This document shows, piece by piece, positions 4,041 through 35,629 of a DNA stretch of 35,907 bases (position 1 is its first letter; each line of letters begins with the position of its first letter). The notes under the pieces were generated by a model, which did not search any database, was not told where the DNA came from, and saw only the letters and a program-made list of their open reading frames with translations. Source of the DNA: a virus; the IMG/VR virus record IMGVR_UViG_3300024520_000253, positions 1 through 35,907 of that record, one strand, 5' to 3'. Position numbers and translations under genes: made by a program.

Positions 4041-4134
4041 TTATCAAAAGGTAGCTTTAACTGTATACCAAAACTTTGCTTTTGTTTGTCGCTCGATATA
4101 GGGCAAAAATAAAATTATTGGCCGATTTAGAAAG

Positions 4135-4190
4135 GGGAGCCTGTTCTCGCCATATTAGGGGTTGACATCAAGTGAGATGCGTGGTAACAT
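4135..4190 (+). promoter_or_regulatory. Element A promoter with operator-like site
   Basis: TTGACA (4162-4167) and TAACAT (4185-4190) are separated by exactly 17 bp, a strong sigma-70-type promoter. Upstream at 4135-4148 is a degenerate copy of the palindrome that is perfect in element B (GAGAACCTGTTCTC). The homology with element B begins at about 4104. The promoter faces the structured leader, the mini-CRISPR array and then the DUF5131 gene. Confidence 0.7.
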
Positions 4191-4204
4191 GCAAGGTGCC
4201 AAAA

Positions 4205-4295
4205 CGGGGCGGTAGGACTCGCGTCGTCTCGATATTAATGCCTGTGGAGGGCGACTCGCTAGAGGCCCTGCGAAACAGGAATCGCCGCTCTGTGG
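4205..4295 (+). ncRNA. Conserved structured leader RNA, copy A
   Basis: This 91-nt block is nearly identical in four places in the window. GGCGGT (4208-4213) can close with ATCGCC (4281-4286). Inside, CCTGT (4241-4245) pairs with ACAGG (4275-4279), and a hairpin GGGC-GA-CTC-GCTA-GAG-GCCC spans 4249-4268. The CTC/GAG stem is replaced by TGC/GCA in copy D, a compensatory change. The block ends about 25 nt before the first CRISPR-like repeat. No known RNA family is recognised. It may act as a CRISPR leader (DNA cruciform) or as a transcribed RNA domain. Confidence 0.75.
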
Positions 4296-4320
4296 AAGAC
4301 GGATAATTACAGAAGTCTGT

Positions 4321-4392
4321 GCCGACCCCATAGACGCGGAGAGCGAGGGCACGCCTATGCTTTGCCTCCCCCACAGATGTGGAGAGCGAGGG
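4321..4392 (+). CRISPR. Mini-CRISPR array A: two degenerate repeats, one 14-nt spacer
   Basis: Two 29-nt repeats lie at 4321-4349 and 4364-4392. They match the window consensus (starting GTCTACCCCACAGG and ending GAGCGAGGG in leader-to-array direction) with about six changes in the first. The spacer at 4350-4363 is only 14 nt, against 32-33 in array D. The array is leader-proximal and sits in the same order as in B, C and D. The short spacer and the lost GGGG half of the stem suggest a decayed or specially trimmed unit. Confidence 0.65.
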
Positions 4393-4460
4393 GCCGACGG
4401 GAGTTTGTATACTTGCGAGTGACTAATTGGAGATATTATCGAATGGGAGGGGAGAAACAC

Positions 4461-5276
4461 ATGCCTATAAAAAATAGCAAAATCCAATGGACCGGACCCA
4501 CCTTCAACCCATGGCAGGGTTGCGTTAAAAAGACCATCAGAATCGCCAGCCAAACTGTCCTCCGCGAGGAGTGCCGCAACTGCTACATGTATCGCGACAA
4601 AAAGCGATATGGTCAGAAGCCGCAAATTGTCGTCCGCTCCAAACCGCCAACCTTCAATAAGCCGCTCAAATGGCAGAAGGAAGCCGAATTGGGACTCCGG
4701 AGCGGAACAGACCGGTTGGTGTTCACCTGCTCCTGGTCAGACTTTTTCAACCCAGAAGCAGATGGCTGGAGAGACGAAGCCTGGGAGATCATCAGGCAGT
4801 GCCCTGATTTAATCTTCCAAATTCTCACAAAATTACCTGAACGGATAGGTGACCATCTGCCTGTCTTTTGGGACGAGATTAAAAGCCATATCTGGCTCGG
4901 CTATTCTTGTGGGATGCCTGGGACAGAGGGGGGAATCGAACACTTGATAAAGCACGATAGTGCTATCCGGTTCCTGTCCTGCGAGCCACTACTGGGTCGG
5001 ATTGATGTTGAGCGCTTTTTGTATCGACATCAATCCGCTCATCGTGTTGATTGGGTAATTGTTGGGGGCGAGAGTGGCCCAGAAGCCCGGTCCATGAACA
5101 TAGTCTGGCTGGACCTACTCATGAGGCAATGCCGAATGGCAAAGGTTCCGTTTTTCGTCAAGCAGATGGGGTCTGCTCAGGCCAAAGCGAACGGAGCGAG
5201 GGATACACATGGGGGGAATATGGATGACTGGTCAGAGGAATATAAAATCCGAGAATTCCCAAAGGAGAGGGTGTAA
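4461..5276 (+). CDS. DUF5131 / phage Gp37-Gp68 family protein (three-Cys motif)
   Basis: The start at 4461 is chosen because GGGAGGGGAG sits at ideal distance before it; an upstream in-frame ATG (4443) lies inside that site. The 271-aa product begins MPIKNSKIQWTGPTFNPWQG, the hallmark of the phage Gp37/Gp68 (DUF5131) family. An early Cys cluster (GC at about 22, then ECRNCY) is followed by conserved blocks SWSDFF, LTKLPERI, LSCEPLLG and VGGESGPEAR. The family is widespread in phages and mobile elements and is often paired with a TcmP partner, not visible here. The biochemical role is unsettled; the Cys residues suggest metal or Fe-S binding. It is the first gene after array A in a plus cassette. 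Confidence 0.88.
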   Translation: MPIKNSKIQWTGPTFNPWQGCVKKTIRIASQTVLREECRNCYMYRDKKRYGQKPQIVVRSKPPTFNKPLKWQKEAELGLRSGTDRLVFTCSWSDFFNPEADGWRDEAWEIIRQCPDLIFQILTKLPERIGDHLPVFWDEIKSHIWLGYSCGMPGTEGGIEHLIKHDSAIRFLSCEPLLGRIDVERFLYRHQSAHRVDWVIVGGESGPEARSMNIVWLDLLMRQCRMAKVPFFVKQMGSAQAKANGARDTHGGNMDDWSEEYKIREFPKERV

Positions 5277-5278
5277 AA

Positions 5279-5455
5279 ATGAAAAGTTATGTAGTGTGGA
5301 GTTTAGGGGTATTTATCATCACGGCGAATGTAGTCGCCGCGATTCTTGGCGGCCAATTTTGGGAGTTGGCGCTAATCGGGACTTCGGTTGGGATGGTCGG
5401 CCTTTTGTTTTTTGGGCTTGGCGTTTGGGTGGCTAATTCAGGGAGTAAAAAATGA
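5279..5455 (+). CDS. Small two-helix membrane protein (58 aa)
   Basis: A 58-codon gene with an excellent AAGGAGAGG site upstream starts 2 nt after the DUF5131 stop codon. Its stop overlaps the next start (ATGA at 5452-5455), so the three plus-strand genes form a coupled operon. The product has two hydrophobic helices, about residues 5-25 and 31-52, with a short loop and a basic C-terminal tail (SGSKK). That is the shape of small phage membrane proteins such as holins or superinfection-exclusion factors, but no family is recognised. A holin role is only a possibility, since no endolysin is adjacent. Confidence 0.75.
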   Translation: MKSYVVWSLGVFIITANVVAAILGGQFWELALIGTSVGMVGLLFFGLGVWVANSGSKK

Positions 5456-5874
5456 CCCGAAATCAAAAAACGATATTATTCATACTGGGAGTAATCGCGC
5501 TTGGCATGTGCGTCTTCCCGTTCCTCATCATCCCGACTATTGACTTCTCAGCCCTCCCCACATCAGTCCCGACAGTTCCCCCGTCGCCAACGATTCCTTC
5601 GCCTCCAACCCCGCTAAAATTCGAGTCTGTAATGGCTCAGATAAAATGTGAGCGGTTCATCAAAGCTACTCTAAGAGCTCCCTCAACCGCCAAATTCTCG
5701 GGGGCCAAAACCTACAGCGTAGATGGAGAACCGCTAAACTATCACGCCGTCACCGGCTATGTAGAGGCTCAAAATGCTTTTGGCGTGCCGCTCCGGTCTT
5801 GGTATCGGTGCTATGTTCATTATATTCCCGCTCGGTCGCACGAATGGGTTTTGGATAATTTGGAGATTGATTGA
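5452..5874 (+). CDS. Membrane-anchored protein with Pro-rich linker and exported domain
   Basis: The 140-aa product has an N-terminal transmembrane helix or signal anchor at about residues 8-28. A Pro/Ser/Thr linker follows at about 35-55 (PPSPTIPSPPTP), then a compact C-terminal domain with CERFIKATLRAPSTAKF and VTGYVEAQNAFG. This type of domain occurs in many small exported bacterial and phage proteins. Two Cys residues, in KCERF and RCYVH, could form a disulphide outside the cell. It overlaps the 58-aa membrane gene by 4 nt and ends 2 nt before a convergent minus-strand gene. A cell-envelope role such as surface modification or exclusion is inferred. Confidence 0.75.
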   Translation: MTRNQKTILFILGVIALGMCVFPFLIIPTIDFSALPTSVPTVPPSPTIPSPPTPLKFESVMAQIKCERFIKATLRAPSTAKFSGAKTYSVDGEPLNYHAVTGYVEAQNAFGVPLRSWYRCYVHYIPARSHEWVLDNLEID

Positions 5875-5876
5875 TT

Positions 5877-6281
5877 TTACTTAGCTACATCAAGGTAAAC
5901 GCGCCCCTCCTGTACGACCCGCCACAATCTCCTCAGATCATGCACCTTGTCCAGCACCGGCAAAGCCTCCACTATTTCCTGAGCCGTTGCTTTTTGGGCC
6001 ACCCAAATTGGATCAACGCCAGCCAACAACGATACTGCTTTTATAATGTCTCCAGGGGCCTTGCTCATCTTTTCCCGTAAAACAAAGAAGACTTCGGATA
6101 AAAGTGACCGATCTTTAGCTATCAGGGCCCGGTCAAGTCGAGGTAAATGCTCTTCGAGGATGGGCCAATAGGGGCTCATCAATAAAACGAGCTCCACCAC
6201 ATCAGATAGAGATAGCGGGCTCACCTCTATTCGCTCCCCCCCGATTCTGATATATAATTTTCGCTTTTTGAATGGCCACAT
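5877..6281 (-). CDS. Probable tail assembly protein (chaperone-like position)
   Basis: A 134-aa, mostly helical, charged protein begins MWPFKKRKLYIRIGG and has many Leu/Val/Glu helices with no membrane segment. It lies between the tail-tube gene and the tape-measure gene, the slot normally held by tail assembly chaperones. In standard siphovirus order the next gene would be the tape measure, but a plus-strand cassette (4104-5874) intervenes. I see no clear slippery site linking it to the upstream genes, so the classical programmed frameshift is not supported. The assignment rests mainly on position and helical character. Confidence 0.6.
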   Translation of the reverse strand: MWPFKKRKLYIRIGGERIEVSPLSLSDVVELVLLMSPYWPILEEHLPRLDRALIAKDRSLLSEVFFVLREKMSKAPGDIIKAVSLLAGVDPIWVAQKATAQEIVEALPVLDKVHDLRRLWRVVQEGRVYLDVAK

Positions 6282-6283
6282 AT

Positions 6284-6598
6284 CTATAATTTCATCTGGT
6301 TTATGGATATTATTTTGATAATCTCAAACGAATAGCAGTTTATTTCATCCAATATTCGCTTAATGGTCCGCCACCGCTTGTCATCGCGGATAAGTTCTAA
6401 TAATTCGCATCCTTCCCAGGTCAGACCACCGATGTACCAATGTGGTTCGTGGACCTTAAAAGCATCAATTAATTTGCAATCGGCCAGCAATTTTAAATGA
6501 TAATTGATCTCGGATTCCGTAAAATCCAAATTCGTCGGGTCAACCTCAGTGACGATTGCCACCAGAATAAACCGAATCAGATCAATATTACGTCTCAT
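6284..6598 (-). CDS. DUF2513-like winged-helix protein
   Basis: The 104-aa product has the layout of DUF2513 proteins: an N-terminal MRRNIDLIRFILVAI, a central EINYHLKLLADCKLI helix-turn-helix-like segment, and the diagnostic LTWEGCELLELIRDDKRW near residue 75. The family is common in phages and mobile elements and is predicted to bind DNA or act as a small regulator. The start overlaps the stop of the upstream 216-aa gene (TAATG), so the two are coupled. A regulator-like gene inside the tail assembly cluster is unusual and may be an accessory insertion. Confidence 0.75.
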   Translation of the reverse strand: MRRNIDLIRFILVAIVTEVDPTNLDFTESEINYHLKLLADCKLIDAFKVHEPHWYIGGLTWEGCELLELIRDDKRWRTIKRILDEINCYSFEIIKIISINQMKL

Positions 6599-7248
6599 TA
6601 ATTCTCCAGTTTAATCACATTCCCCACTGGGAGGGTCCTAATCAGGACCCTGATCGGCTCTGGGGGAGATTCATCGATCATCCAACTAAACATTGGCGCA
6701 GGAACAAAACGGCTTGATCTTGTGCTATTATCATATTTGTAAGATAGCTCAGAGAGAGCGCGTTGGTCTTCTCGCTCATAGTATTCAGATACCATAATTT
6801 CCTGAATATAAGCTGCTGCCTCCTCTGGATAGAGGCCCCAGATTGTTTCCAGCCCCCAACCGTAGCGCGAGGCGAGGCGATGAACCCAAACAGCCCACCG
6901 CCTGCCCTCATATTCGTAAACTTCAGGATCGGAAGGGGTGGTATTGGGTTTTGATAGCCAGGGCAATAACCACTGCCATGCATTCAATCTGCGCAAAGCA
7001 AAAAAAGCCTCAAGTAATTCATAGGCTGAGGCTTCTTTTAGTTGCTCATTCGTAATACCTCCCAAAGAGAGATATTTTATAATTTGGCCTGAGATTTCTA
7101 CAGGATGCCGATTCTCGCCAATTTTGACTTCGATCTGGCTTAGTTGCAAGTGACGCAATAACCGACAGCGAGGGACAAATACTGCTTGTCCCCCAATGAT
7201 AATATTGATTCCCTGCCGAGAATCAACCGCAGCCAAAAAGTCATCCAT
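6598..7248 (-). CDS. Phage protein downstream of tail tube (putative tail assembly chaperone)
   Basis: The 216-aa soluble protein starts one base after the tail-tube gene's stop. The first half is helical (LSQIEVKIGE, ITNEQLKEASAYELLEAFFALRRL). The middle is Trp-rich (NAWQWLLPWL, RRWAVWVHRLASRYGWGLETIWGLYPEEAAAYIQE), a pattern seen in gpG/gpT-like chaperones that link substrate tail proteins to the tape measure. The C-terminal 60 residues look less ordered. The location fits a tail assembly chaperone, but no frameshift signal is evident at its end, where a DUF2513 gene follows. Function is by position. Confidence 0.6.
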   Translation of the reverse strand: MDDFLAAVDSRQGINIIIGGQAVFVPRCRLLRHLQLSQIEVKIGENRHPVEISGQIIKYLSLGGITNEQLKEASAYELLEAFFALRRLNAWQWLLPWLSKPNTTPSDPEVYEYEGRRWAVWVHRLASRYGWGLETIWGLYPEEAAAYIQEIMVSEYYEREDQRALSELSYKYDNSTRSSRFVPAPMFSWMIDESPPEPIRVLIRTLPVGNVIKLEN

Positions 7249-7893: not shown

Positions 7894-8172
7894 TTAAAAT
7901 ACCTCTTCAAAATATTTTTGTGGCCTAACAGTTCCACCGCAGCAGCCAGATGGCTTGGTCTCAAGGCCCAATAAAATAAAGTAATCTCGCAAATCAACCG
8001 GTTTGACTTCCCCGGTGTTGAATTCGTACCGTCTCCCTGATGCTGTTTTGTCTTCCCCTACAATGAGCCGGCTCTCATATATACATCTAATCCGTACTTC
8101 TGCCGGAAGTTCAGCGGGCTTGATTTCGATGGGCGGATGAACAGTGATCGTTGGCTCACGGCTGCGGGGCAC
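7894..8172 (-). CDS. Small phage protein between tail terminator and tail tube
   Basis: The 92-aa product appears to start with GTG at 8172, preceded by GGGGGGATCTCA as a ribosome site and overlapping the upstream gene by 17 nt. It contains a proline-rich N-terminus, a beta-type middle (EVRIRCIYESRLIVGE) and SGCCGGTV near the C-terminus. The Cys pair is notable but isolated. Position in the tail-connection cluster suggests a minor tail or assembly protein; no family is recognised. Confidence 0.65.
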   Translation of the reverse strand: MPRSREPTITVHPPIEIKPAELPAEVRIRCIYESRLIVGEDKTASGRRYEFNTGEVKPVDLRDYFILLGLETKPSGCCGGTVRPQKYFEEVF

Positions 8173-9075: not shown

Positions 9076-9083
9076 TTTTCCCC

Positions 9084-9114
9084 AAATAAAAAGCTGCGGA
9101 ATATTCCGCAGCTT
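9084..9114 (-). terminator. Perfect hairpin plus T-tract in leader of gp10 operon
   Basis: Positions 9091-9114 form a perfect 24-bp palindrome with 12-nt arms (AAGCTGCGGAAT). On the minus strand it is followed by TTTTTATTT, the form of an intrinsic terminator. It lies between a minus-strand extended -10 promoter (9136-9144) and the gp10 start (9075). It could stop opposite traffic from the insert, or act as an attenuator needing antitermination. Confidence 0.7.
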
Positions 9115-9184: not shown

Positions 9185-9240
9185 GAGAACCTGTTCTCAC
9201 CATATTAGGGGTTGACATCAAGTGAGATACGTGGTAACAT
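9185..9240 (+). promoter_or_regulatory. Element B promoter and perfect palindromic operator
   Basis: TTGACA (9212-9217) and TAACAT (9235-9240) are separated by 17 bp. At 9185-9198 lies a perfect 14-bp palindrome GAGAACCTGTTCTC, placed where a repressor or activator would sit. Homology with element A starts at about 9154. The promoter is followed by the structured leader, array B and the 617-aa gene. Confidence 0.72.
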
Positions 9241-9254
9241 GTAAAGTGATAAAA

Positions 9255-9345
9255 CGGGGCGGTAGGACTCGCGTCGTCTCGATAATAATGCCTGTGAAGG
9301 GCGACTCACTAGAGGCCCTGCGAAACAGGAATCGCCGCTCTGTGG
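9255..9345 (+). ncRNA. Conserved structured leader RNA, copy B
   Basis: The 91-nt block matches copies A, C and D. The hairpin reads GGGC-GA-CTC-ACTA-GAG-GCCC, with outer CCTGT/ACAGG and closing GGCGGT/ATCGCC pairs as in copy A. Changes from A fall in the loop (GCTA to ACTA) and at unpaired sites. The usual in-frame TAA after the block is absent here (CAA instead), so the open reading frame through the block is not conserved. Confidence 0.75.
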
Positions 9346-9370
9346 GGGAGGGGCAAGCGCAGAAGTCAGT

Positions 9371-9524
9371 GTCTACCCCTCAGCCGCGGGGAACGAGGGG
9401 CCAACGCCCACGAAGCGTTGACCTTCAAAAAGTCGCCCCCACAGCCGCGGTGAGCGAGAGCTCGGGGACTGCGGCCTTCATTGGGACGGTCAATAGTCAA
9501 CCCCACAGGCGCGGTGAGCGAGGG
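9371..9524 (+). CRISPR. Mini-CRISPR array B: three repeats, two spacers (32 and 35 nt)
   Basis: The 29-nt repeats lie at 9371-9399, 9432-9460 and 9496-9524. Spacers are 9400-9431 (32 nt, the standard type I-E length) and 9461-9495 (35 nt). Repeat variation is moderate, mostly in the central CAGGC/CAGCC part and the GGGG arm. The first spacer contains a 6-bp inverted repeat, CAACGC (9403-9408) and GCGTTG (9415-9420). No cas gene is near; the next gene is the 617-aa TerD-like protein. Confidence 0.8.
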
Positions 9525-11515: not shown

Positions 11516-11713
11516 ATGACAAAAATGGGACGACCCCAAATTAATCCAGAAGACAAACGCATAAAACAAAATATTTACTTTGACCCCAAGACCAAACTTT
11601 TGGCTAATGCAATCGCCCGGAAACTCGGGCTCCCGGCTTGGGGGTATGCGGTGGACCGGGCCATTGAAAAGATGGCTGAGGAATTGGGGATAATAACCTT
11701 GGGGAGTGAATAG
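11516..11713 (+). CDS. Small ribbon-helix-helix-like protein
   Basis: The 65-aa product, preceded by AAAGGGA, begins MTKMGRPQINPEDKRIKQNI. A beta strand (KQNIYFD) and two helices (PKTKLLANAIARKLG and WGYAVDRAIEKMAEELG) follow, the shape of Arc/MetJ-type ribbon-helix-helix DNA-binding proteins. The initial GRP-x-INPEDKRIK is typical of phage and plasmid copies. It may repress the cassette promoter. Its last four codons and stop overlap the 5' end of the tmRNA-like gene at 11702. Confidence 0.7.
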   Translation: MTKMGRPQINPEDKRIKQNIYFDPKTKLLANAIARKLGLPAWGYAVDRAIEKMAEELGIITLGSE

Positions 11714-11826
11714 GATTCGACAGATCGTTGTCGGGATCGGTAGGCGAAAAGGCCCGTTGTTCTAAGCCAAAAATCTCAGCAATAGCAACGATCTGGACGC
11801 GGGTTCGATTCCCGCCACTTCCACCA
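11702..11826 (+). ncRNA. ssrA-like: Miniature tmRNA-like RNA (125 nt)
   Basis: The ends form a tmRNA tRNA-like domain. The acceptor stem GGGAGTG (11702-11708) pairs with CACTTCC (11816-11822), followed by A and encoded CCA. A D-like segment AGGATTCGACAG matches tmRNA, and a T-arm GCGGG-TTCGATT-CCCGC is at its expected place. A 10-bp P2 helix, CAGATCGTTG (11721-11730) with CAACGATCTG (11786-11795), encloses only 55 nt. Normal tmRNAs are over 200 nt with pseudoknots and a tag reading frame. One frame inside the loop runs from GCG at 11744 to TAG at 11783-11785. The tag is unproven; it could be degenerate or a specialised decoy. Confidence 0.75.
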
Positions 11827-14251: not shown

Positions 14252-17200
14252 CTATACAATATTAAACGTGTCACCATTTGAGGGCGCTTCGGTTGTGGCC
14301 GTGTATGTCAACATTTTTGTGCCCCCATCATAATCAGTAATGTCGGAAGCCTGATCTTGCAAGACCCCGCTGGTCCAAATGATAATCCGGCCGATATAGT
14401 GATCATCTGTGATCTCGGTCAGGTTGGTGGTCATCTGGGTGATGCTCAACGTACCCGTAACCGCCGCCCCGGTAACAATAGTTTCCGCACTGGCCTCCAA
14501 CTTATCAGCGGCATCAGTTGAACCGCTTATTGCCACCGCATCACTAGACATCCGTCCGCTGACCAGGGCTGCAGGCAGCCGCGCCTGAATATCTTGGGTG
14601 TCGGTTTCTATAGCGTCTGCCGTAGTCTGTGAGCCCCGGGCATCCAGAATAAGATCAAGCCGCCCCCCATCTACCCAATCCCCCTGAAGTTCGTTTGTAT
14701 CGCCCAGTATCGCCGCGGCATCACCACCGCCCCCACTCTCAAGCAATAGGTCAAGGGAGCGCAAGCGCTCATTAATACTATCCGCTGCCGGTGATCCCGG
14801 TATAGCTGTGTCTAAGGCAGTGTCAACCTCAGCGTTAACCTGAGCTGCGCTTAGATCGTTCAATGCCCCGACCGTAGCCTCGAGGGCTGTCTTGTCCCCG
14901 AGGGCCTGTAGACTATCAGTTGCGTCATCATACGTCCCTCCTACATCAGAAGGAGTCGTCGCATCCGACCTCATTAATGCCTGGAAGAAGCCTAAAATAT
15001 TGTTAACGCCGCCTGTAGTGAATGCTCCGATTCGATCTAATATCGTGGTCTGGTTGGCTGATGTAGCCGCGGAAGCGTGCAAATTAGTGACATCTGTCAC
15101 CGTGGCTACTGTGTCAGCCGCCGGATCAAAATAGCTGGCGGCTACAAGAGTTCGGGCGTTAAATTCAGCCACGGTTGGAATATCAGCTATGTCGGTCGGA
15201 AGGTTGGCTGCGTCCAGCTCCGCTAACCGTGCTTCTGTGGCTACACTGGCTAAAGCCGCGCTATCGGTGCCACGCATGGTCTGTCTTATCTCCGTGTAGA
15301 AGATTCGCCCGGTAGCATCAGAAATCTCGTAATCGTTGGCAGCGACTGTGATCTTCTGACTATAGAAGGTTATCCGAATCGAGTCCGCTTCAGCATAGCC
15401 AGTTCCGCTATCAAATACCTCGTCATAATAGATGAGTCCAGCCGCTTCAGAACAGGCTGCTCCTGAAACAACACTCGCCCAGGATGTGCCACCAATCGCT
15501 TTGCGGTCAATGTCTATCGTGCCTGGCGTAATCTCAGCCGTCGAAGGAAGATCGTCCAATGCGTTGGTAAGCTGAAGCCCAAGTCTCCAGGTAGCCGTGT
15601 TGGCCAAATCAATATTTTCAGGGATAAGCGGAACTACATTTAGAATGTCCGTAATCCCACCTCCGCCCCCCGTGATCCAGGCTGAATCACCCCGGTCTCT
15701 TATCGCTTGTAAGCTATCGGTTGTCCGGTCAAAGCTGGCTGATCCATCATTGGCAATCTGGTCAAGATATGTTCCGGTAGGCATAGCCGGGATGCCTACC
15801 GATGTGCCTACTAAATGGTCAAGGTTAATATCGGTCAAAGCTGTATCAACCTCAGCGTTAACCTGAGCTGCGCTTAGATCGTTCAATGCCCCGACCGTAG
15901 CCTCGAGGGCTGTCTTGTCCCCGAGGGCCTGTAGACTATCAGTTGCGTCATCATACGTCCCTCCTACATCAGAAGGAGTCGTCGCATCCGACCTCATTAA
16001 TGCCTGGAAGAAGCCTAAAATATTGTTAACGCCGCCTGTAGTGAATGCTCCGATTCGATCTAATATCGTGGTCTGGTTGGCTGATGTAGCCGCGGAAGCG
16101 TGCAAATTAGTGACATCTGTCACCGTGGCTACTGTGTCAGCCGCTGGATCAAAGTAACTCGCGGCGACAAGAGTCCGGGCATTGAATTCAGCCACGGTTG
16201 GAATATCAGCTATGTCGGTCGGAAGGTTAGCCGCGTCAAGTTCCGCTAACCGCGCTTCAGTAGCTACGCTGGCCAAAGCCGCGCTATCGGTGCCTCGTTC
16301 TGTTTGTCTTATCTCTGTATAAAAGATTCGACCGGTAGCATCTGAGATTTCGTAATCATTAGCGGCGACTGTGATCTTCTGACTATAGAAGGTTATTCTA
16401 ATCGAGTCTGCTTCAGCATAGCCAGTTCCGCTATCGAACACCTCGTCATAATAGATAAGCCCGGCTGCTTCAGAACAGGCTGCTCCAGAGACGATGCTGG
16501 CCCAAGAGGTACCACCAATCGCTTTGCGGTCAATGTCTATCGTGCCTGGCGTGATCTCCGCTGTCGAAGGAAGATCATCAATCGCATTGGTAAGCTGAAG
16601 CCCAAGTCTCCAGGTAGCCGTGTTGGCCAAATCAATGCTCTCAGGGATAAGCGGCACCACATTTAGAATGTCGGTAATCCCACCCCCGCCACCCGTGATC
16701 CAAGCGGCATCTCCTCGATCTCGGATTGCCTGTAAGCTGTCGGTTGTCCGATCAAAGCTGGCTGACCCGTCATTCATCATTTGATCAATGTATGTCCCTG
16801 TCGGGATAGCAGGGATGCCAGTTGATATACCAACTAAATGGTCAAGGTTAACATCGGTCAAAGCTGTATCAACTTCAGCATTGACCTGAGCTGCGCTTAG
16901 ATCGTTGAGAGCCCCGACCGTAGCTTCGAGAGCTGTCTTGTCGCCAATAGCCTGCAAGCTGTCGGTGGCGTCGTCATATGAACCCCCCACGTCTGACGGC
17001 GTTGTCGCATCCGACCTCATTAATGCCTGGAAGAACCCTAAAATATTATTGACGCCGCCTGTAGTAAATGCTCCGATTCGATCTAATATCGTGGTCTGAT
17101 TCGCGCTTGTCGCAGCAGAAGCGTGTAAATTAGTGACATCCGTAACCGTGGCCACTGTGTCAGCCGCTGGATCAAAGTAGCTGGCGGCTACAAGGGTCCG

Positions 17201-17755
17201 GGCATTGAATTCGGCAACGGTTGGTATATCGGCTATGTCGGCCGACACACTAGCCCCTGCCGGACCTCCTAATCTGGCATAATTATCGCCCGTTTGAGCT
17301 GTATGTCCAGTTAATGTAGTTACAGTTCCCAAAGTCGAATTAGCCCGAACCAGGCCAGTGCCGTCATAGTCTAATTCAAGGTTATCGGCTGCAACAACAT
17401 CGTCTGAGATCTCTTTAATGTTGGCAACAATTGGAGTCAGATTGAATGACCCCATAAATCCTGTGGGATTCTGAGCATCAACGGTTAGAGTGCTAAATAC
17501 GCCATACGTGCTACCCGTAGCAAATCCGTTGCCTGTTGTGGCCGCAACCGAAATCTCGTAACACCCCAACGGATAATTAGCATGAGTAAGCAAGGTAGGA
17601 GTTGGGCTAAGTATAGGGGCGGCGCTTGCCGTATCCCCCGCCAATCGAACATCAGCCAGGGCCGCAGTCCCCGTTGCTCCAGACCCACTTGTATTATTGG
17701 AGCCGAACCAAAAATAAAGCGTATCGCCTATCGTGGCATGTTGATGTATGCTCAT
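14252..17755 (-). CDS. Long repetitive tail fibre / appendage protein
   Basis: The 1167-aa protein starts with a beta-rich domain (YFWFGSNNTSGSG, VRLAGDTASAAP) and a SFNLTPIVANIKEIS link at about residues 100-115. It then has about two and a third copies of a 341-aa unit, each with IADIPTVAEFN, helical LLD-type coils, an ITGGGGGITDIL hinge, and a beta segment with WRLGLQL and KITVAANDYEI. The C-terminal domain (IIWTSGVLQDQASD, LTYTATTEAPSNG) is separate. Such repeats fit an extended fibre whose length can vary by unit number. It lies in the appendage cluster and overlaps the LamG gene by 4 nt. Receptor binding or spacing is inferred. Confidence 0.78.
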   Translation of the reverse strand: MSIHQHATIGDTLYFWFGSNNTSGSGATGTAALADVRLAGDTASAAPILSPTPTLLTHANYPLGCYEISVAATTGNGFATGSTYGVFSTLTVDAQNPTGFMGSFNLTPIVANIKEISDDVVAADNLELDYDGTGLVRANSTLGTVTTLTGHTAQTGDNYARLGGPAGASVSADIADIPTVAEFNARTLVAASYFDPAADTVATVTDVTNLHASAATSANQTTILDRIGAFTTGGVNNILGFFQALMRSDATTPSDVGGSYDDATDSLQAIGDKTALEATVGALNDLSAAQVNAEVDTALTDVNLDHLVGISTGIPAIPTGTYIDQMMNDGSASFDRTTDSLQAIRDRGDAAWITGGGGGITDILNVVPLIPESIDLANTATWRLGLQLTNAIDDLPSTAEITPGTIDIDRKAIGGTSWASIVSGAACSEAAGLIYYDEVFDSGTGYAEADSIRITFYSQKITVAANDYEISDATGRIFYTEIRQTERGTDSAALASVATEARLAELDAANLPTDIADIPTVAEFNARTLVAASYFDPAADTVATVTDVTNLHASAATSANQTTILDRIGAFTTGGVNNILGFFQALMRSDATTPSDVGGTYDDATDSLQALGDKTALEATVGALNDLSAAQVNAEVDTALTDINLDHLVGTSVGIPAMPTGTYLDQIANDGSASFDRTTDSLQAIRDRGDSAWITGGGGGITDILNVVPLIPENIDLANTATWRLGLQLTNALDDLPSTAEITPGTIDIDRKAIGGTSWASVVSGAACSEAAGLIYYDEVFDSGTGYAEADSIRITFYSQKITVAANDYEISDATGRIFYTEIRQTMRGTDSAALASVATEARLAELDAANLPTDIADIPTVAEFNARTLVAASYFDPAADTVATVTDVTNLHASAATSANQTTILDRIGAFTTGGVNNILGFFQALMRSDATTPSDVGGTYDDATDSLQALGDKTALEATVGALNDLSAAQVNAEVDTALDTAIPGSPAADSINERLRSLDLLLESGGGGDAAAILGDTNELQGDWVDGGRLDLILDARGSQTTADAIETDTQDIQARLPAALVSGRMSSDAVAISGSTDAADKLEASAETIVTGAAVTGTLSITQMTTNLTEITDDHYIGRIIIWTSGVLQDQASDITDYDGGTKMLTYTATTEAPSNGDTFNIV
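14820..17230. repeat. Tandem 1023-bp repeat within the fibre gene
   Basis: The same sequence recurs at 1023-bp spacing (TATCAGCTAT at 15181 and 16204, TATCGGCTAT at 17227), which is 341 codons, so the frame is kept. Copies cover about 16208-17230, 15185-16207 and a truncated third at 14820-15184. The stretches 14823-15121 and 15846-16144 are identical over 299 bp, while the corresponding part of the first copy has many silent changes. This points to recent duplication or gene conversion. Confidence 0.9.
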
Positions 17756-19496: not shown

Positions 19497-20765
19497 TTAT
19501 CTAACTTCGTTCTCGTTTAGAGAGGCCAAAACTGAGGCCGTACCCGAAAGGGGCGTGCAAACAATAGAGAGGGGAATAGGATTAGCCCCATCAATATCTA
19601 GGGTTAAAGGAAGCCTCGATAATATTGGGCTGGTAATATCTCCTCGAGCATTATTGCCACTCCCATTAACAGGCACATAAAAGGCTTGCAAGGTATAGCC
19701 TCCGCTAATGACCGTAGCAGCTACGTTATATTCAGTAACACTTTCATCCGCAACACTAACAAATGCCCCCGTGCCGAATAAAAGCCCATTATAGACAATC
19801 TCAACAAAAACCGATTGGCTGGTTGTGAAAATGTTCACACCAAGGGGTGTGATTTGCCCCCTGTTTTCGATACTATTAAAAGTTGCCTTGGGTCTGATTG
19901 ATAATACCGGCACCCGAGCCCCGACTGAGGCAGCAACGTCCCCCCGACTGGCCGAAAATGGAACCCCTCTATCTTTCTCGAATCCTCCCTCAGAAAAAAC
20001 AGAAGAGCAAATAGCGCTTAACGTAGCCGCGCTCCCAGCCCCTGTGTTTTCAATCTCGTACCGCAAAGGAAGGGTGCCAGTTCTCATATATGGGGCAGCA
20101 GCCCCTATGTTCGCATTATTGATGTAGTGAGCATAAACTGTTTTCCCATCAATGTTAAATCCAAATCTGACACGACCAACCCCCAGCCATTCTATATCGG
20201 CATCTAAAATTTGTCTACGGGTTACATCAATTGTGATCCCGCTGGAGCCTGTTCCATCAAAAGGGTCTTGATTCCAATCAGATTGGGCGATCCGTGTATC
20301 AACTATCGCCCCAGAAGTCGAAGAACGAAGGACGAGAAATAGACCGGCGAATGTTTGTTCTAAAAATATGCCATCACTATCATCGAAATACCCTACTCTG
20401 CGGCGAATTCCGCCCGCTACTGTCCCCAAAACAAAGGTCATCAGGAATCTTTGGCTTTTCCCCTTCTGGTAGGGGAAATAGGAATAAGTTTGACCCTTCA
20501 CCAATCCAGTGCTGCCCCCGACTGAAAGTGTGGCCATTCGCGCATCACTATCGTGGGCAGCGCTGCCACTTCCAGTTGTTTTCATCTGCCAGAGTAAAGG
20601 CATTAAATCATACTCAAAAGAAGTGTCAAACAGACTCTCTGGATTTGCAACTCGCTGTCGCCCAAAGGCATCTAATGAAGCTGTATCCCCAAAACCAGTC
20701 ACCAATACGGTGCTTGTATTTGAAAATATCTCTCTTGAGTGCTGTTCAGGTGTTCGTTTAGGCAT
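19497..20765 (-). CDS. Large virion structural protein
   Basis: The 422-aa protein is preceded by TAGGAG. It has an N-terminal segment with AFGRQRVANPESLFD and later KGQTYSYFPYQKGKSQ, RRVGYFDDSDGIF, WNQDPFDGTGSSG and DIEWLGVGRVRFGF. I have the impression that the FGR-x-RV-x-NP and GYFD blocks recur in uncharacterised virion proteins of tailed phages, but I cannot name a family. The composition is beta-rich and soluble. It directly follows the glycosyltransferase pair on the minus strand and heads the appendage cluster. A tail, baseplate or capsid-associated role is inferred. Confidence 0.72.
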   Translation of the reverse strand: MPKRTPEQHSREIFSNTSTVLVTGFGDTASLDAFGRQRVANPESLFDTSFEYDLMPLLWQMKTTGSGSAAHDSDARMATLSVGGSTGLVKGQTYSYFPYQKGKSQRFLMTFVLGTVAGGIRRRVGYFDDSDGIFLEQTFAGLFLVLRSSTSGAIVDTRIAQSDWNQDPFDGTGSSGITIDVTRRQILDADIEWLGVGRVRFGFNIDGKTVYAHYINNANIGAAAPYMRTGTLPLRYEIENTGAGSAATLSAICSSVFSEGGFEKDRGVPFSASRGDVAASVGARVPVLSIRPKATFNSIENRGQITPLGVNIFTTSQSVFVEIVYNGLLFGTGAFVSVADESVTEYNVAATVISGGYTLQAFYVPVNGSGNNARGDITSPILSRLPLTLDIDGANPIPLSIVCTPLSGTASVLASLNENEVR

Positions 20766-22992: not shown

Positions 22993-23021
22993 TTGACATT
23001 AAGTACAGAGTGTGGTAACAT
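22993..23021 (+). promoter_or_regulatory. Promoter of the zinc-ribbon operon, same core as elements A and B
   Basis: TTGACA (22993-22998) and TAACAT (23016-23021) are 17 bp apart. The flanks match elements A and B (GGGGTTGACAT, GTGTGGTAACATG). Upstream at 22958-22973 a weaker inverted site, GAGA...TCTC, replaces their palindrome. It drives the plus genes from 23068. Confidence 0.78.
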
Positions 23022-30920: not shown

Positions 30921-30952
30921 GGTTCAATATTTCCTGTAATTTGTCCGACTAC

Positions 30953-31094
30953 CCCTCGCTCCCCGTGCCTGTGGGGTAGACGTGTCTCCAATAGGCTCTC
31001 TAGCCCTCGCTCACCGCACCTGTGGGATCGACGTACGATTGCCGCCGTTGCTACTGCGTTAATCACCCTCGCTCTTCGCATCTGTGGGGTAGAC
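30953..31094 (-). CRISPR. Mini-CRISPR array C: three repeats, two spacers
   Basis: The 29-nt repeats lie at 31066-31094 (leader-proximal), 31004-31032 and 30953-30981. Spacers are 31033-31065 (33 nt) and 30982-31003 (22 nt, short). The leader-distal repeat is the closest to consensus, whereas the leader-proximal ones carry changes in the GGGG arm. In ordinary arrays the leader-distal repeat is usually the degenerate one. The array lies on the transcribed minus strand between the SH3-like and GT2 genes. Confidence 0.78.
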
Positions 31095-31119
31095 ACTGAC
31101 TTCCGCCATTATCCATCCC

Positions 31120-31210
31120 CTACAGAGCGGCGATTCCTGTTTCGCAGGGCCTCTAACGAGTCGCCCTTCGCAGGCATTATTATCGAGACGACGCGAGTCC
31201 TACCGCCCCG
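31120..31210 (-). ncRNA. Conserved structured leader RNA, copy C
   Basis: The 91-nt block matches A, B and D. The hairpin is GGGC-GA-CTC-GTTA-GAG-GCCC, with loop GTTA. The outer arm is CCTGC here, so one of its five pairs with ACAGG is lost. It lacks the TTGACA promoter of A and B; upstream it shares AAGCGTCTAAAATGCC with D instead. Transcription probably comes from the surrounding minus-strand run. Confidence 0.75.
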
Positions 31211-31257
31211 GATTGGCATTTTAGACGCTTGAAAGGGCCGCATATTCCATACCACTT

Positions 31258-31470: not shown

Positions 31471-31485
31471 TGTGCCCATAACTCC

Positions 31486-32706
31486 TTAAAATGGGATTTC
31501 GTGGGATATCAAAAACCTATCTAACACACCAATCATATATCCCATTTCCGCATCTGACATCCCCCAGGCAGGCAAAAATAGGGAATTATCACCTATCCAA
31601 TCGGCTACCTCGCTTGTCCCTGCCAAAATTTTGCGATTACCAGGCAAACGAACAAAAGCGGGATGGTCAAGGATGTTTCCAGTAAACAGGGGCCTGATTT
31701 CTATTTTGTTTTCTATTAAATAAGTTGCAAATTCTTTTCGGCTAAAAGGGGCGCCCGGTTTAATTGTCAGAGGGAAAGCAAACCAGGAGGGTTCGGCATC
31801 CCCCTCTGTATATGGCAAATAAAAGAACTCGTTGAATCTGGAAAAATACTGAGAAAGTTCATAAACTTTTTGACATCTTGTTACATTAGCTTGATCTAGT
31901 CTCTCCAATTGAGCGATTCCAAAAGCCGCTTGGAGTTCGGTCATCTGATAATCATAGCCCAGCGTTTCATACCAATACCGTTTGGCGAATTTTTCATAGG
32001 GATCAGCCAGCACCGAATAATCATCTCTCCCCCAATGAGCCATAGACCGAACTAATTCGTATATTTCCTCATTATGAGTAGCCAAGGCTCCGCCAACTCC
32101 GGCCGTGGTGATATGGTGGCTGCCATAGAACGAGAATGCCGCCACTTGGCCAAAATTCCCCACATGTAAACCGTCATAATATCCGCCCATAGTATCACAA
32201 CAGTCCTCAATCAGTAGGCGCCCATCCAGAATATCAAGCAAATCAACCATGCTGCAAATATTCCCCAGGAGGTGCGGAATGATCGCGCCCTTTATCCTGT
32301 CCCCATAATTTTTAATGGCTTCCCTTGCAGCATCCAAATCGATTTGATAGGTGTTTCTGTCCACATCAACAAAAACAGGAACCAGCCCCGCTTGGATGGC
32401 CGGCGCAATGGAAGTTGGGAAGGTTAGGAGGGGGTGGAGTATCCAGTCCCCCGGGTTCCAATGTCCTAACATTAACATTGCCTGAACTGCCAAAGTCAAA
32501 GCGGATGAACCAGAATTGACAGGCTGAACATGTGCAATATCAGTATAGTTGGCCAAAGCCAGGGCAAACTCCGAAACCTTTTGCCCTGGCCCAAACCAAT
32601 CGTTATCCAAAACAGACTGAATCTGATCAACTTCAGCTTGATCCCAAACTATCCGATTTATCAGAACCGGATCGCCCGGCTTCCACTTTTTCCATTGGCC
32701 TCTCAT
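31486..32706 (-). CDS. RfbH-like sugar 3-dehydratase (PLP-fold, His in place of Lys)
   Basis: The start at 32706 is preferred over 32790 because AAAAAGGAGC sits just upstream. The 406-aa enzyme belongs to the DegT/DnrJ family: VNSGSSALTLAVQAML at about residue 62, IEDCCDTMGGYYDG at about 165, and SFYGSHHITTAGVGG near 193. In aminotransferases Lys binds PLP there; here His-His replaces it, as in RfbH and ColD, which remove the 3-hydroxyl of a 4-keto-hexose. SWFAFPLTIK and IRPLFTGNILDHP also match RfbH. It likely makes a 3,6-dideoxysugar with the adjacent reductase. The RfbH Fe-S cysteines are not obvious, so a ColD-type reaction is possible. Confidence 0.8.
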   Translation of the reverse strand: MRGQWKKWKPGDPVLINRIVWDQAEVDQIQSVLDNDWFGPGQKVSEFALALANYTDIAHVQPVNSGSSALTLAVQAMLMLGHWNPGDWILHPLLTFPTSIAPAIQAGLVPVFVDVDRNTYQIDLDAAREAIKNYGDRIKGAIIPHLLGNICSMVDLLDILDGRLLIEDCCDTMGGYYDGLHVGNFGQVAAFSFYGSHHITTAGVGGALATHNEEIYELVRSMAHWGRDDYSVLADPYEKFAKRYWYETLGYDYQMTELQAAFGIAQLERLDQANVTRCQKVYELSQYFSRFNEFFYLPYTEGDAEPSWFAFPLTIKPGAPFSRKEFATYLIENKIEIRPLFTGNILDHPAFVRLPGNRKILAGTSEVADWIGDNSLFLPAWGMSDAEMGYMIGVLDRFLISHEIPF

Positions 32707-33508
32707 GAAATGCTCCTTTTTGTGTTGATAATTCGTACAATCCATCAATTGGGTCGTGACTATTAATCTGCTTATACCCTGTATGATCACAGATTAACCC
32801 CGCGTTTTTTGGCCTTCGCGCACCGGGGGGTGTCCCTTCAACGGGAGTTATCATGTCCAAATCATGGCCAAATATTTCCGCTATCATCGCAGCAAACGTC
32901 AATCGAGAGAGAACCCTCTTCCCTGCCACATGCGCCAGGCCCGTATATTCTTCTCGTGCCAACCGGATGATTTCAGATGCTAGTGAAGGCACATACGTCG
33001 GCGTGCCTGTTATATCAGGATTGTAAAGGACAACTTCTTTCCCCTCTGCTAATTGAGCCACAATTTTAGCTACGAAATTATTCTTAGTGCTGCTAAATAA
33101 TATGGTAGTGCGAACAATGAGAGATGGGCCTTTGTAGCGCCTCGCTATCAGCTCTCCCCCAAGTTTGGACCAGCCATAGACATTAATCGGATTCGGGTCG
33201 GCCCTGACCCAGTAAGGTCCGATCTGCCCATCAAATACATAATCTGTTGAAATATGGATGAGGTGACCGTTAAAATGAGTGTTCAAATATTCCACGCCCC
33301 CCATATTAACAGCAGCCGCCATCAACGGCTCCTTTTCACAACCATCCACGTCAGTCATAGCCGCACAATTGATAATGGTATCCGGCTTGATGGCCCTGAT
33401 ATTTGATGTCAGGTTTTCGGACATCAACCGGCCTTGAAGAGGAAGACAGCCTTGCTTTACCAGCTCTCGCCCCAGTTGTCCCGAGGCTCCGGTCACTGCT
33501 ATTTTCAT
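32633..33508 (-). CDS. RmlD-like dTDP-4-keto sugar reductase
   Basis: The 291-aa protein has an N-terminal MKIAVTGASGQLGRELVKQG (NAD(P)-binding Gly motif), TIINCAAMTDVDGCE, ISTDYVFDGQIGPYW, and YGWSKLGGE, the catalytic Tyr-Lys pair. The fold is the extended SDR of RmlD, which reduces a 4-keto-6-deoxy sugar nucleotide. The C-terminus reads past the usual end into ELSTQKGAFHERPME and overlaps the next gene by 74 nt, so a frameshift or lost stop may have extended it. It pairs naturally with the RfbH-like enzyme. Confidence 0.86.
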   Translation of the reverse strand: MKIAVTGASGQLGRELVKQGCLPLQGRLMSENLTSNIRAIKPDTIINCAAMTDVDGCEKEPLMAAAVNMGGVEYLNTHFNGHLIHISTDYVFDGQIGPYWVRADPNPINVYGWSKLGGELIARRYKGPSLIVRTTILFSSTKNNFVAKIVAQLAEGKEVVLYNPDITGTPTYVPSLASEIIRLAREEYTGLAHVAGKRVLSRLTFAAMIAEIFGHDLDMITPVEGTPPGARRPKNAGLICDHTGYKQINSHDPIDGLYELSTQKGAFHERPMEKVEAGRSGSDKSDSLGSS

Positions 33509-33712
33509 TTATCCCCCCTCCATCACCCGTGTTTGATCTGCTATCATTTTATTAAGGTCTTCTGCCATTCTGTCTAGGAATCTATCTATTTGATCCTCGG
33601 TTAAACATTCCATTAACCCTTCCCGAATATCTACCCTACACAATTCATGACCATAATCCTTATCACCAATTATGTATGAATCATCAGAAATATATCTGCA
33701 AGTATATGCCAT
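33509..33712 (-). CDS. Small hypothetical protein
   Basis: The 67-aa product has a strand-rich N-terminus (TCRYISDDSYIIGDKDY) and an acidic helical C-terminus (DQIDRFLDRMAEDLNKM). GAGGGGGG precedes the start. It lies between the RmlD-like gene and a short membrane gene with near-continuous spacing. No family recognised. Confidence 0.6.
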   Translation of the reverse strand: MAYTCRYISDDSYIIGDKDYGHELCRVDIREGLMECLTEDQIDRFLDRMAEDLNKMIADQTRVMEGG

Positions 33713-33715
33713 AAT

Positions 33716-33889
33716 TCATCCCCCCTCTATCATTGATAGAACCCACAGCCAAAATGGGATACTCAGTGCCACGACCCACAAAATCCAAGAGTTTGATTTG
33801 GGAGAAACGACTTTGGATTGCTCTTTTACTAATTGGCCATCAACATAGGTTTTGATAACCATGACCACCTGCTGCTTTTTCTTGGTCAT
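33716..33889 (-). CDS. Short membrane protein (57 aa)
   Basis: A 57-codon frame has a basic start (TKKKQQVVMVIKTYVDGQ), a KEQSKVVSPKSNS linker and a C-terminal hydrophobic helix (WILWVVALSIPFWLWVLSM). GGGAG precedes the start. Its stop lies 3 nt before the next start. The tail-anchored shape suggests membrane attachment for a neighbouring sugar enzyme, or an exclusion role. No family recognised. Confidence 0.65.
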   Translation of the reverse strand: MTKKKQQVVMVIKTYVDGQLVKEQSKVVSPKSNSWILWVVALSIPFWLWVLSMIEGG

Positions 33890-33901
33890 TTGGGAGTCTC
33901 C

Positions 33902-34153
33902 CTAAATTTCTATTGCTTCGATATCATTGTATTCATTGGTCTGTATTTTGTACAAAGGTAAGACTTCCCCCTCTTCTGCTTTTCTGAATAATGGACTACA
34001 AGCACAATATTCAAAACTCATACTAAAAAACTGGTGTTCGCAACGAATAACTAGCATCTTACTCATAACCTGCCCCCAAAAGGGGAGGTTCCCTACAGTT
34101 TGGCTTTCCTCTAATACAAATCTTCCACGCCGGTCAAGAATATCATCATTCAT
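33902..34153 (-). CDS. Small hypothetical protein
   Basis: The 83-aa soluble product contains FVLEESQTVGNLPFWGQ, then VIRCEHQFFSMSFEYCACSPLF, with three Cys and a His that might bind metal. Its start touches the stop of the glycosyltransferase gene (shared base at 34153). The C-terminus is acidic. No family is recognised; coupling suggests work with that enzyme. Confidence 0.6.
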   Translation of the reverse strand: MNDDILDRRGRFVLEESQTVGNLPFWGQVMSKMLVIRCEHQFFSMSFEYCACSPLFRKAEEGEVLPLYKIQTNEYNDIEAIEI

Positions 34154-35049
34154 TACAACCCCTCCAAAATTTGTTCCACTCGGGCATCCCAGGTATGGGG
34201 CTTTACCGTCTCGTGTCCCTGCCTGGCAATAGCCTCCATTTCGCCCTCGTTTTTCAGGTAGTACAGAACCTTTTCAACAGCTTCGTCGAGTGTATTAAAG
34301 GCTATCAAATCTTTGCCGTCCTCAAAGAATTTCGGCAGGTCCGGAACCCGATTAACGACAGCCAGCCGCTTCATTCCTAGCAGCTCGAAAACCCGCGCGG
34401 TCAGGTCCTCTTTGCTTGACCAATTGAGGCCAATGGGCGCTTGATTGTAGATCGTTCGCGCTTCATCAAAACTAGGCCCCAGATCATAGTAGACCTTTAC
34501 TCCGCTTTTCCTCAACTTATCGACCAACAAATTTCTATGGTGATAATGCAACCCCAGGAGGCAAACATCAAAAAGCCCTTCCTCTTTTTGGGGAGCATGC
34601 CATATAGGGTCGTAGGCATAGGGTAGATACTCATCCCCAGGCTGGGCATAACAGGCTTGCATACAGTAAAAAGTATCGGCCAACCCCCGTTGTTTGTCGT
34701 AATTCAATACGTGAGGATCAGTGGCCACTATTACATTTTTGCCACATGCCGGTTTGCCTTCAAAATGAAATCCGGCATCAATCTGTATCCACATATCTGC
34801 AGGTTGGGTTAACTGAGCCTCAACAAACGAAATTGGAACATACGGAGCCCCTTGAGGCAAAGTAATGTCCGGCGGAATCGCGTATTTAGCAGGCAGGGTC
34901 ATCCAATTGTTCCACGGGATCATAGTGCCCGTATATGGGCCTACTGTAATCAGGTTGAGGTTCTCTCTTCTTTTTAGGGCTGCTTCAAAATATCGCAAAA
35001 TAGCCATCGGGAAATATAAACCACTTAATACCACGGTTAGCTTATTCAT
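34153..35049 (-). CDS. Glycosyltransferase (GT-B, CgeB-like C-terminal domain)
   Basis: The 298-aa enzyme starts LTVVLSGLYFPMAILRYFEA and then has KNVIVATDPHVLNYDKQR, DVCLLGLHYHHRNLLVDKL and KEDLTARVFELLGMKRLAV. The R-x-FE-x-LG motif is typical of CgeB-like GT-B enzymes; FFEDGKDLIAF and the final TWDARVEQIL complete it. It is the first glycosyltransferase gene of the sugar island in transcription order. Its 5' end overlaps the zinc-finger-like gene by 8 nt. The donor sugar cannot be told from sequence. Confidence 0.82.
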   Translation of the reverse strand: MNKLTVVLSGLYFPMAILRYFEAALKRRENLNLITVGPYTGTMIPWNNWMTLPAKYAIPPDITLPQGAPYVPISFVEAQLTQPADMWIQIDAGFHFEGKPACGKNVIVATDPHVLNYDKQRGLADTFYCMQACYAQPGDEYLPYAYDPIWHAPQKEEGLFDVCLLGLHYHHRNLLVDKLRKSGVKVYYDLGPSFDEARTIYNQAPIGLNWSSKEDLTARVFELLGMKRLAVVNRVPDLPKFFEDGKDLIAFNTLDEAVEKVLYYLKNEGEMEAIARQGHETVKPHTWDARVEQILEGL

Positions 35050-35260
35050 TTCTTATAAATTCCACAATCCTAGCATAAATACAGTCATCAGCGTGGGTCA
35101 GGAGATATCCATTACAGAAAAAACATGCGGTTCTGCCATACTCATTATCAAAATAGGGGGTTATTCCTATTTTGTCTACTAGCTCCCTAAGAAGTTCAGC
35201 CCCCCTCGTTCCCCACGCCTGTGGGGTAGACGCACGATGGCTTGACCCAAATTTAGCCAA
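35042..35260 (-). CDS. Small zinc-finger-like protein fused into array D
   Basis: The C-terminal part, LLRELVDKIGITPYF then ACFFCNGYLLTHADDCIYAR, has the C-x2-C...H-x3-C pattern of common phage metal-binding mini-proteins. Between this part and array D there is no ATG, GTG or TTG in frame. The only start is TTG at 35260 inside spacer 4, so the frame must read through a CRISPR repeat. The array's distal end may have replaced the original 5' end, or the gene is broken. Overlap with the GT gene is 8 nt. Confidence 0.5.
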   Translation of the reverse strand: MAKFGSSHRASTPQAWGTRGAELLRELVDKIGITPYFDNEYGRTACFFCNGYLLTHADDCIYARIVEFIRNE

Positions 35261-35477
35261 ACTTCCCTCGCTCCCCGTGCCTGTGGGGTAGATTACCGCG
35301 CCATGAGAACCTCTTCAACTTTCGTCCCTCGCTCCCCGTGCCTGTGGGGTAGATGAGATTTGTGAATGGCGGCGAGGTGCATTGATCCCTCGTTCCCCGT
35401 GCCTGTGGGGTAGATGATTGAGGAAGCAGGGGCAGGCATAGGAACAGGCCCTCGTTCCCCGTGCCTGTGGGGTAGAT
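35203..35477 (-). CRISPR. Mini-CRISPR array D: five repeats, four spacers (intact)
   Basis: The 29-nt repeats lie at 35449-35477 (leader-proximal), 35387-35415, 35326-35354, 35265-35293 and 35203-35231. Spacers are 33, 32, 32 and 33 nt, the regular type I-E size. Repeats are nearly identical: C/T at one position (GAACG or GAGCG), a T/C at the first base, and one changed pair in the distal copy. The plus-strand form gives a CCCCGT-GCCT-GTGGGG hairpin with G.U pairs. The leader side argues for minus-strand transcription. No cas genes are visible. Confidence 0.92.
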
Positions 35478-35500
35478 ACTGGATTGCAATTACCCATCCC

Positions 35501-35591
35501 CCACGGTGCGGCGATTCCTGTTTCGCAGGGCTGCTAGTGCATAGCCCTCCACAGGCATTATTGTCGAGACGACGCGAGTCCTACCGCCCCG
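35501..35591 (-). ncRNA. Conserved structured leader RNA, copy D
   Basis: The block is 91 nt as in A-C but more diverged. Its hairpin reads GGGC-TA-TGC-ACTA-GCA-GCCC, so the CTC/GAG stem became TGC/GCA with two of three pairs changed on both sides. This is compensatory evidence for structure. CCTGT/ACAGG and the closing pairs persist. It lies 23 nt before the first repeat of array D. Confidence 0.78.
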
Positions 35592-35629
35592 TTTTGGCAT
35601 TTTAGACGCTTGCCAACCTTAACGCTTCT

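Follow-up and report, generated by a model that had tools for sequence, protein, structure and literature searches.

The viral DNA analysed here, the 35,907-nt IMG/VR record IMGVR_UViG_3300024520_000253 (the window), carries together with its 52.5-kb sister contig IMGVR_UViG_3300024520_007217 eight cassettes in which a 91-nt leader is followed by a short linker and by one or more 29-nt repeats. The leader shares the core of the omegaRNA, the guide RNA transcribed from tnpB 3′ ends (TnpB being the transposon enzyme from which CRISPR-Cas12 descends), and is conserved at the RNA level; no nuclease is recognisable in the phage around it. We see about an even chance that the cassettes are stand-alone guide RNA genes which derive from an IS200/IS605-type TnpB omegaRNA and work with a TnpB-family effector in trans.

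Leader–repeat cassettes of the phage genome

An initial annotation had described four cassettes of leader, linker and repeats in the window, and all four were confirmed in position and strand: A 4205–4392 (+), B 9255–9524 (+), C 31210–30953 (−) and D 35591–35203 (−). They hold two, three, three and five repeats respectively. The leader copies lie far apart and on both strands, and are therefore not a product of chance; over 106–126 nt the leaders of the window are ∼88–93% identical to copy B. The parts of the cassettes are as follows.

4205–4295, plus strand: leader of cassette A (omegaRNA/tracrRNA-like scaffold)
4296–4320, plus strand: linker of cassette A
4321–4392, plus strand: repeats of cassette A (4321–4349, 4364–4392) with a 14-nt spacer
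9255–9345, plus strand: leader of cassette B
9346–9370, plus strand: linker of cassette B
9371–9524, plus strand: repeats of cassette B (9371–9399, 9432–9460, 9496–9524) with spacers of 32 and 35 nt
30953–31094, minus strand: repeats of cassette C (31094–31066, 31032–31004, 30981–30953) with spacers of 33 and 22 nt
31095–31119, minus strand: linker of cassette C
31120–31210, minus strand: leader of cassette C
35203–35477, minus strand: repeats of cassette D (35477–35449, 35415–35387, 35354–35326, 35293–35265, 35231–35203) with spacers of 33, 32, 32 and 33 nt
35478–35500, minus strand: linker of cassette D, 23 nt
35501–35591, minus strand: leader of cassette D
35781–35907, no strand assigned: exact 127-nt overlap with the start of the sister contig, which belongs to the same phage and carries cassettes E–H

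The gap of about 25 nt between leader and first repeat, as annotated initially, measures 23–25 nt, and its sequence is also conserved in most of the eight copies. Spacers of mostly 32–33 nt, in contrast, are a feature of D and only in part of B and C; the spacer of A and one each in B (35 nt) and C (22 nt) depart from it. Full regularity is seen in array D alone, with a repeat period of 62, 61, 61 and 62 nt and mutually unrelated spacers.

The cassettes are not limited to the four first noticed. When IMG/VR was searched with a leader 25-mer, the sister contig was the one other home, and leader and repeat patterns found nothing beyond it in the same collection. The final 127 nt of the window match its first 127 nt exactly, and colinearity with the relative G403 (68.8 kb) continues through the junction; because of these two findings we treated both contigs as one phage of ∼88.3 kb. 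The two pieces nevertheless stand in IMG/VR as separate virus entries. The sister contig adds four cassettes (E–H) of one repeat each, which brings the phage to eight leaders and 17 repeats, every one of the latter (17/17) lying downstream of a leader on the same strand. Comparison of the eight units revealed a 28-nt invariant block at the 5′ end of the leader, followed by the core AATGCCTGTGGAG-stem-GAAACAGGAATC. An Rfam scan matched the cassettes to no known RNA family. The leader is absent from four relatives with 64–76% identical portal or capsid (L030, L031, G403 and G404), and G403 has zero cassettes.

The leader core as a tnpB 3′-end signature

The sequence of the leader core (AATGCCTGTGGAG-stem-GAAACAGGAATC) is the one that typifies the 3′ ends of tnpB genes, the stretch transcribed as omegaRNA. 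A covariance model built from the 53-nt core of the eight phage leaders, with no tnpB sequence used in its construction, matched tnpB 3′ ends in Pfam-selected actinobacterial loci (L043, E = 0.003; L039, E = 0.004; L036, E = 0.09; L060, E = 0.15), in each case just after the zinc ribbon and on the right strand. It also matched a stand-alone copy inside a phage tRNA cluster (L032, 1054–1123; E = 2e-5) and, weakly, a site in L049 that lies away from the tnpB 3′ end (E = 0.03); 104 kb of unrelated loci gave no match. A fuzzy version of the core motif marked 12 of 30 Pfam-defined actinobacterial tnpB loci, versus 1.6 in shuffles. When IMG/VR was scanned with a tnpB-like version of the motif, 50 loci were found, 42 of which had a tnpB open reading frame directly upstream; three of the remaining eight had < 230 nt of upstream sequence. 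Among 396 actinobacterial genomes, the covariance model found only weak (E ∼0.001–0.006) tnpB-type or stand-alone omegaRNAs.

The leaders also bear signs of selection at the RNA level. One internal stem shows a compensatory change from CTC/GAG to TGC/GCA, and the covariation score of the whole structure, 0.192 versus 0.123, exceeded 500/500 shuffles as well as all slid versions, with most of the signal coming from that stem.

We also noted apparently stand-alone TnpB-type omegaRNAs elsewhere, in two actinobacterial genomes (L063 and L064), in a phage contig (L124) and in L032, with no tnpB found within the examined flanks. Those of L063 and L124 directly precede a gene start.

Repeats as putative crRNA-like ends

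In the omegaRNA of ISDra2, a pseudoknot forms between positions −6 to −2 before the guide and a strand ∼100 nt upstream; stem 4 precedes the pseudoknot strand, and its loop divides the part resembling a trans-activating CRISPR RNA (tracrRNA) from the part resembling a CRISPR RNA (crRNA) (PMC10097598). The phage repeat ends in CGAGGG, which places CGAGG at −6 to −2 from the guide, where it could pair with an invariant UCUCG of the leader, and the seven-base stretch just 5′ of CGAGG can pair with leader positions 84–90. These pairs are possible in 17/17 repeats (5/5 in the putative pseudoknot, 6–7 of 7 in the stem strand) and are mostly invariant. We infer from this layout that the repeat is probably the counterpart of an omegaRNA's crRNA-like end. 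Since the leader is homologous to the tnpB 3′-end omegaRNA scaffold and able to pair with the repeat, it would therefore resemble a tracrRNA of the TnpB/Cas12 lineage. Leader–repeat duplex energies lie below the shuffle mean for 15/15 distinct repeats, but chance windows reach equal energies, and we do not claim the pairing as proved.

Promoters and genomic setting

In A, B and E, the leader is preceded by a promoter of the form TTGACA-17-TAACAT that ends ∼14 nt upstream of it, and G has a weaker form of this promoter. Cassettes C, D and F share a different upstream element, and H has neither. The upstream sequences of the eight cassettes fall into three types, without a common left end.

4162–4190, plus strand: promoter TTGACA-17-TAACAT of cassette A, present also at B, at E and upstream of two protein genes
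9212–9240, plus strand: promoter TTGACA-17-TAACAT of cassette B, with TG before the −10 box
31218–31237, minus strand: upstream element ..AAGCGTCTAAAAT of cassette C, common to C, D and F; a possible second promoter type
35596–35627, minus strand: upstream element AAGCGTTAAGGTTGGCAAGCGTCTAAAATGCC of cassette D, common with cassette F

The two protein genes in question have the A/B/E promoter (TTGACAT-AAG...TAACAT) at window positions 22993–23021 and at G001 20498–20526 (−).

Each cassette has a promoter or a gene on its upstream side and a co-oriented gene on its downstream side, the start codon of which is often 20–100 nt away; this agrees with the earlier observation that the cassettes point along the local transcript. 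The genes behind them share nothing with one another (DUF5131, glycosyltransferases, portal, methyltransferase), and H is separated from its gene by promoter- and hairpin-like sequence. The cassettes occupy variable regions of the phage genome. Specifically, a ∼1.9-kb block (window 3996–5876), comprising cassette A and three cargo genes (the DUF5131 gene and two small genes), is absent from G403; there, the tape-measure gene comes immediately after the next gene. Homing, with the guide equal to the native flank of the empty site, was considered and rejected: the 3′ flank of H is the portal promoter region of the relatives, but that of A is inserted cargo.

A hairpin GCTGCGGA..TCCGCAGC followed by a T-run stands before late genes, near promoter-like sequence (window 9093–9112; G001 15213–15232 (−); portal gene), and is conserved before the portal gene in L030/L031. 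It looks, from its sequence, like a terminator or attenuator inside a 5′ untranslated region (UTR).

Effector search and neighbouring genes

We looked for an effector with PADLOC, Pfam and a TnpB profile among 98 proteins and in the six-frame translation of both contigs. None of the three recognised a cas gene, in line with the initial annotation. The PADLOC and Pfam tallies cover the 25 most frequent families, and the TnpB profile is therefore the direct effector test. No transposase was seen among the matches listed for either contig; no tnpB gene lies directly upstream of a cassette, and no tldR gene adjoins one. The 617-aa protein encoded behind B was examined as a candidate effector and set aside, as it showed no nuclease or Cas domain and only a weak match to the MXAN_6230/SCO0854 family.

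Behind this 617-aa gene, at window 11702–11826 (+), lies a 125-nt RNA that matches the Rfam model of transfer-messenger RNA (tmRNA) from end to end (70.6 bits, E = 1e-25). Where the model has ∼304 nt, this RNA has 55. Its ends are tRNA-like, with CCA, and it has a long P2-type stem; the normal tag region is absent, and ARAGORN made no call. This RNA is possibly a mini-tmRNA or a decoy. At the Rfam threshold it was not found in G403/G404. Elsewhere, a predicted tail gene (window 14252–17755 (−)) contains three direct repeats at 1023-nt spacing (99% and 84% identity), i.e. a triplicated module of ∼340 aa. One phage protein matches the ADP-ribosyltransferase exoenzyme domain PF03496 (E = 8e-32), and others match ThyX, methyltransferases and several glycosyltransferases.

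Interpretation of the cassettes

If the cassettes are guide RNA genes, the leader would act as a tracrRNA-like scaffold, the repeat, which would supply one strand each of stem and pseudoknot, as the crRNA-like end, and a guide would follow 3′ of each repeat. E–H, with one scaffold, one repeat and one putative guide, would have the same topology as a TnpB omegaRNA in which the loop is enlarged. In A–D, the crRNA-like part would have been multiplied into an array (in D, five repeats at a period of 61–62 nt), and later repeats would therefore need the leader in trans, as in tracrRNA/crRNA systems. The enlarged loop between scaffold and repeat would fit a split such as that made by RNase III in a dual guide. 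At least three cassette copies start behind a clear phage promoter. Because recognisable TnpB or Cas12 is missing from the 88 kb, the effector would have to come from the host, a co-resident element or an unassembled piece. The phage might direct this effector, through as many as 17 guides, at rivals, at loci of the host or at its defences.

Several results weigh against this interpretation. The spacing in A, B and C is irregular, and the repeats end in CGAGGG, without the TCAA that is usual for TnpB. The pseudoknot pairs show no variation among first repeats and thus provide no test of themselves; nor is the leader–repeat pairing specific to a repeat's own cassette (permutation p ∼0.07, first repeats), and similarly stable duplexes arise by chance elsewhere in the phage genome, though leader windows are enriched. 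The putative last guide of E, G and C extends into the start of a gene, as would an ordinary 5′ UTR. Neither TnpB, Cas12 nor any other Cas protein was recognised in the 88 kb of a possibly incomplete phage. A leader 22-mer was absent from 84,980 genomes, among which the host genome may be missing, and the repeat pattern gave 14 single, chance-like matches there and zero arrays. Comparison of the spacers with the phage's own sequence, with the relatives and with phage and plasmid collections gave nothing significant, and spacer D3, searched as an exact 24-mer, had no match in IMG/VR.

The missing spacer targets would be expected if guides were irrelevant, as they would be for a decoy. In this main rival explanation, which we regard as doubtful, scaffold and repeat RNA would be overproduced in the manner of an RNA anti-CRISPR (Racr) and unproductively occupy a TnpB- or Cas12-family effector or an RNA-binding Cas protein of the host. 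The multi-copy, promoter-driven, nuclease-free single-repeat units E–H do look like the solitary repeat units that function as Racrs (PMC10651486), and conservation is much stronger in the scaffold than in the spacers. However, array D keeps regular, unrelated spacers of 32–33 nt for which a decoy has no use, eight dispersed copies of differing array length would be unnecessary for one, and no host system with a matching repeat or leader was found in the 84,980 genomes. The same search bears on the type I-E system proposed by the initial annotation, in which virus mini-CRISPR arrays would use host Cascade. That annotation had called for comparing the repeat with host-candidate arrays and the spacers with phage and plasmid genomes; the 84,980 genomes yielded no array with this repeat, and the phage and plasmid collections no significant spacer match. 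Although 29-nt repeats, 32–33-nt spacers and partly palindromic CCCC...GGGG repeats are in keeping with type I-E, the repeats differ widely among copies, and the leader is structured and homologous to the tnpB omegaRNA, unlike type I-E leaders; we consider this assignment very improbable. What stands of the earlier functional proposal is the general neighbourhood of a guide or decoy RNA.

Two further explanations are less likely than either guides or decoys. The position of the cassettes close before co-oriented genes, the use of the same promoter by ordinary genes and the stand-alone omegaRNAs just before gene starts in L063 and L124 would all suit a cis-acting 5′ UTR element, i.e. an exapted omegaRNA-like structure that regulates the stability, antitermination or translation of the next gene, its extra repeats being accidental. 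This is unlikely in our judgement, as the downstream genes are unlike one another, H is cut off from its gene, and the regular unrelated spacers of D would go unexplained. Least credible, on a par with type I-E, is the idea that transposition scattered the cassettes as MITE-like remnants of tnpB 3′ ends from non-autonomous IS200/IS605 elements, functionless for the phage. Scaffold and terminal repeat do correspond to the right-end part of such elements, and cassette A arrived with a block missing from G403. Yet the three upstream types offer no common left end, the orientation is always that of the local genes, TnpB was not detected, no transposase appeared among the matches listed, and the strong conservation with compensatory change argues against functionless copies.

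Within the guide RNA interpretation, we tentatively raise the possibility of a living intermediate between omegaRNA and CRISPR, with a split scaffold, a spacer-acquiring crRNA-like repeat, nuclease-free arrays of one to five repeats and a TnpB-family effector in trans. According to one proposal, tracrRNAs and crRNA arrays go back to an omegaRNA that was split at its last-stem loop and the crRNA part of which was multiplied (PMC10097598). The phage seems to display this split-and-multiplied state in one genome, with arrays of one to five repeats and no effector gene. Such a phage would make the omegaRNA-to-CRISPR transition directly testable, and its cassettes are specific candidates for guides that act in trans, or for decoys aimed at enzymes of the TnpB/Cas12 family.

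Comparison with known systems

Mini-arrays in phages, Racrs, TldRs and guide RNAs that stand alone all have precedents. Stand-alone omegaRNAs are on record for IscB, and split-guide TnpB–Cas12 intermediates for cellular genomes. In the literature, we found no report of a phage with multiple copies of a TnpB-type scaffold, each leading its own crRNA-like array, and with the effector absent.

The cassettes are close to the omegaRNA (reRNA) of TnpB in IS200/IS605 and IS607 elements, as in ISDra2 (PMC10097598), through the core CCTGTGGAG...GAARCAGGAA, the possible pseudoknot at −6 to −2 and the putative guide at the 3′ end. The phage cassettes differ in that no tnpB adjoins them or occurs in the 88 kb, the loop of the last stem is enlarged to ∼40 nt, the repeats are multiplied and the tail is CGAGGG rather than TCAA. 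Type V tracrRNA/crRNA arrays (Cas12f-like), including proposed split-omegaRNA intermediates, have a scaffold with an anti-repeat-like 3′ end, followed by arrayed repeats with 3′ guides, an arrangement that the cassettes may share. D is a regular repeat–spacer array of this kind, whereas A–C are irregular. In contrast to type V loci, the phage lacks Cas12 and cas1/cas2, places a scaffold in cis before every array and has 29-nt repeats.

Virus mini-CRISPR arrays and the solitary repeat units of Racrs (PMC11656645, PMC10651486) share with the cassettes cas-less viral repeats behind promoters, and E–H each carry a solitary repeat, behind a clear promoter in E and a weaker one in G. Mini-arrays and Racrs, however, mimic a known host CRISPR repeat and lack an omegaRNA-type scaffold; for the phage cassettes, no matching host repeat was found. 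TldR guide RNAs are exapted TnpB guide RNAs, phage-borne in some TldR clades, and the Oscillibacter TldR has a dual guide split by RNase III (PMC13418256). The cassettes resemble them in the enlarged stem-loop that could split scaffold from guide. The TldR protein is encoded beside its guide RNA, whereas the cassettes have no such gene; they would extend phage exaptation of TnpB guide RNAs from protein-bearing systems to guide-only cassettes.

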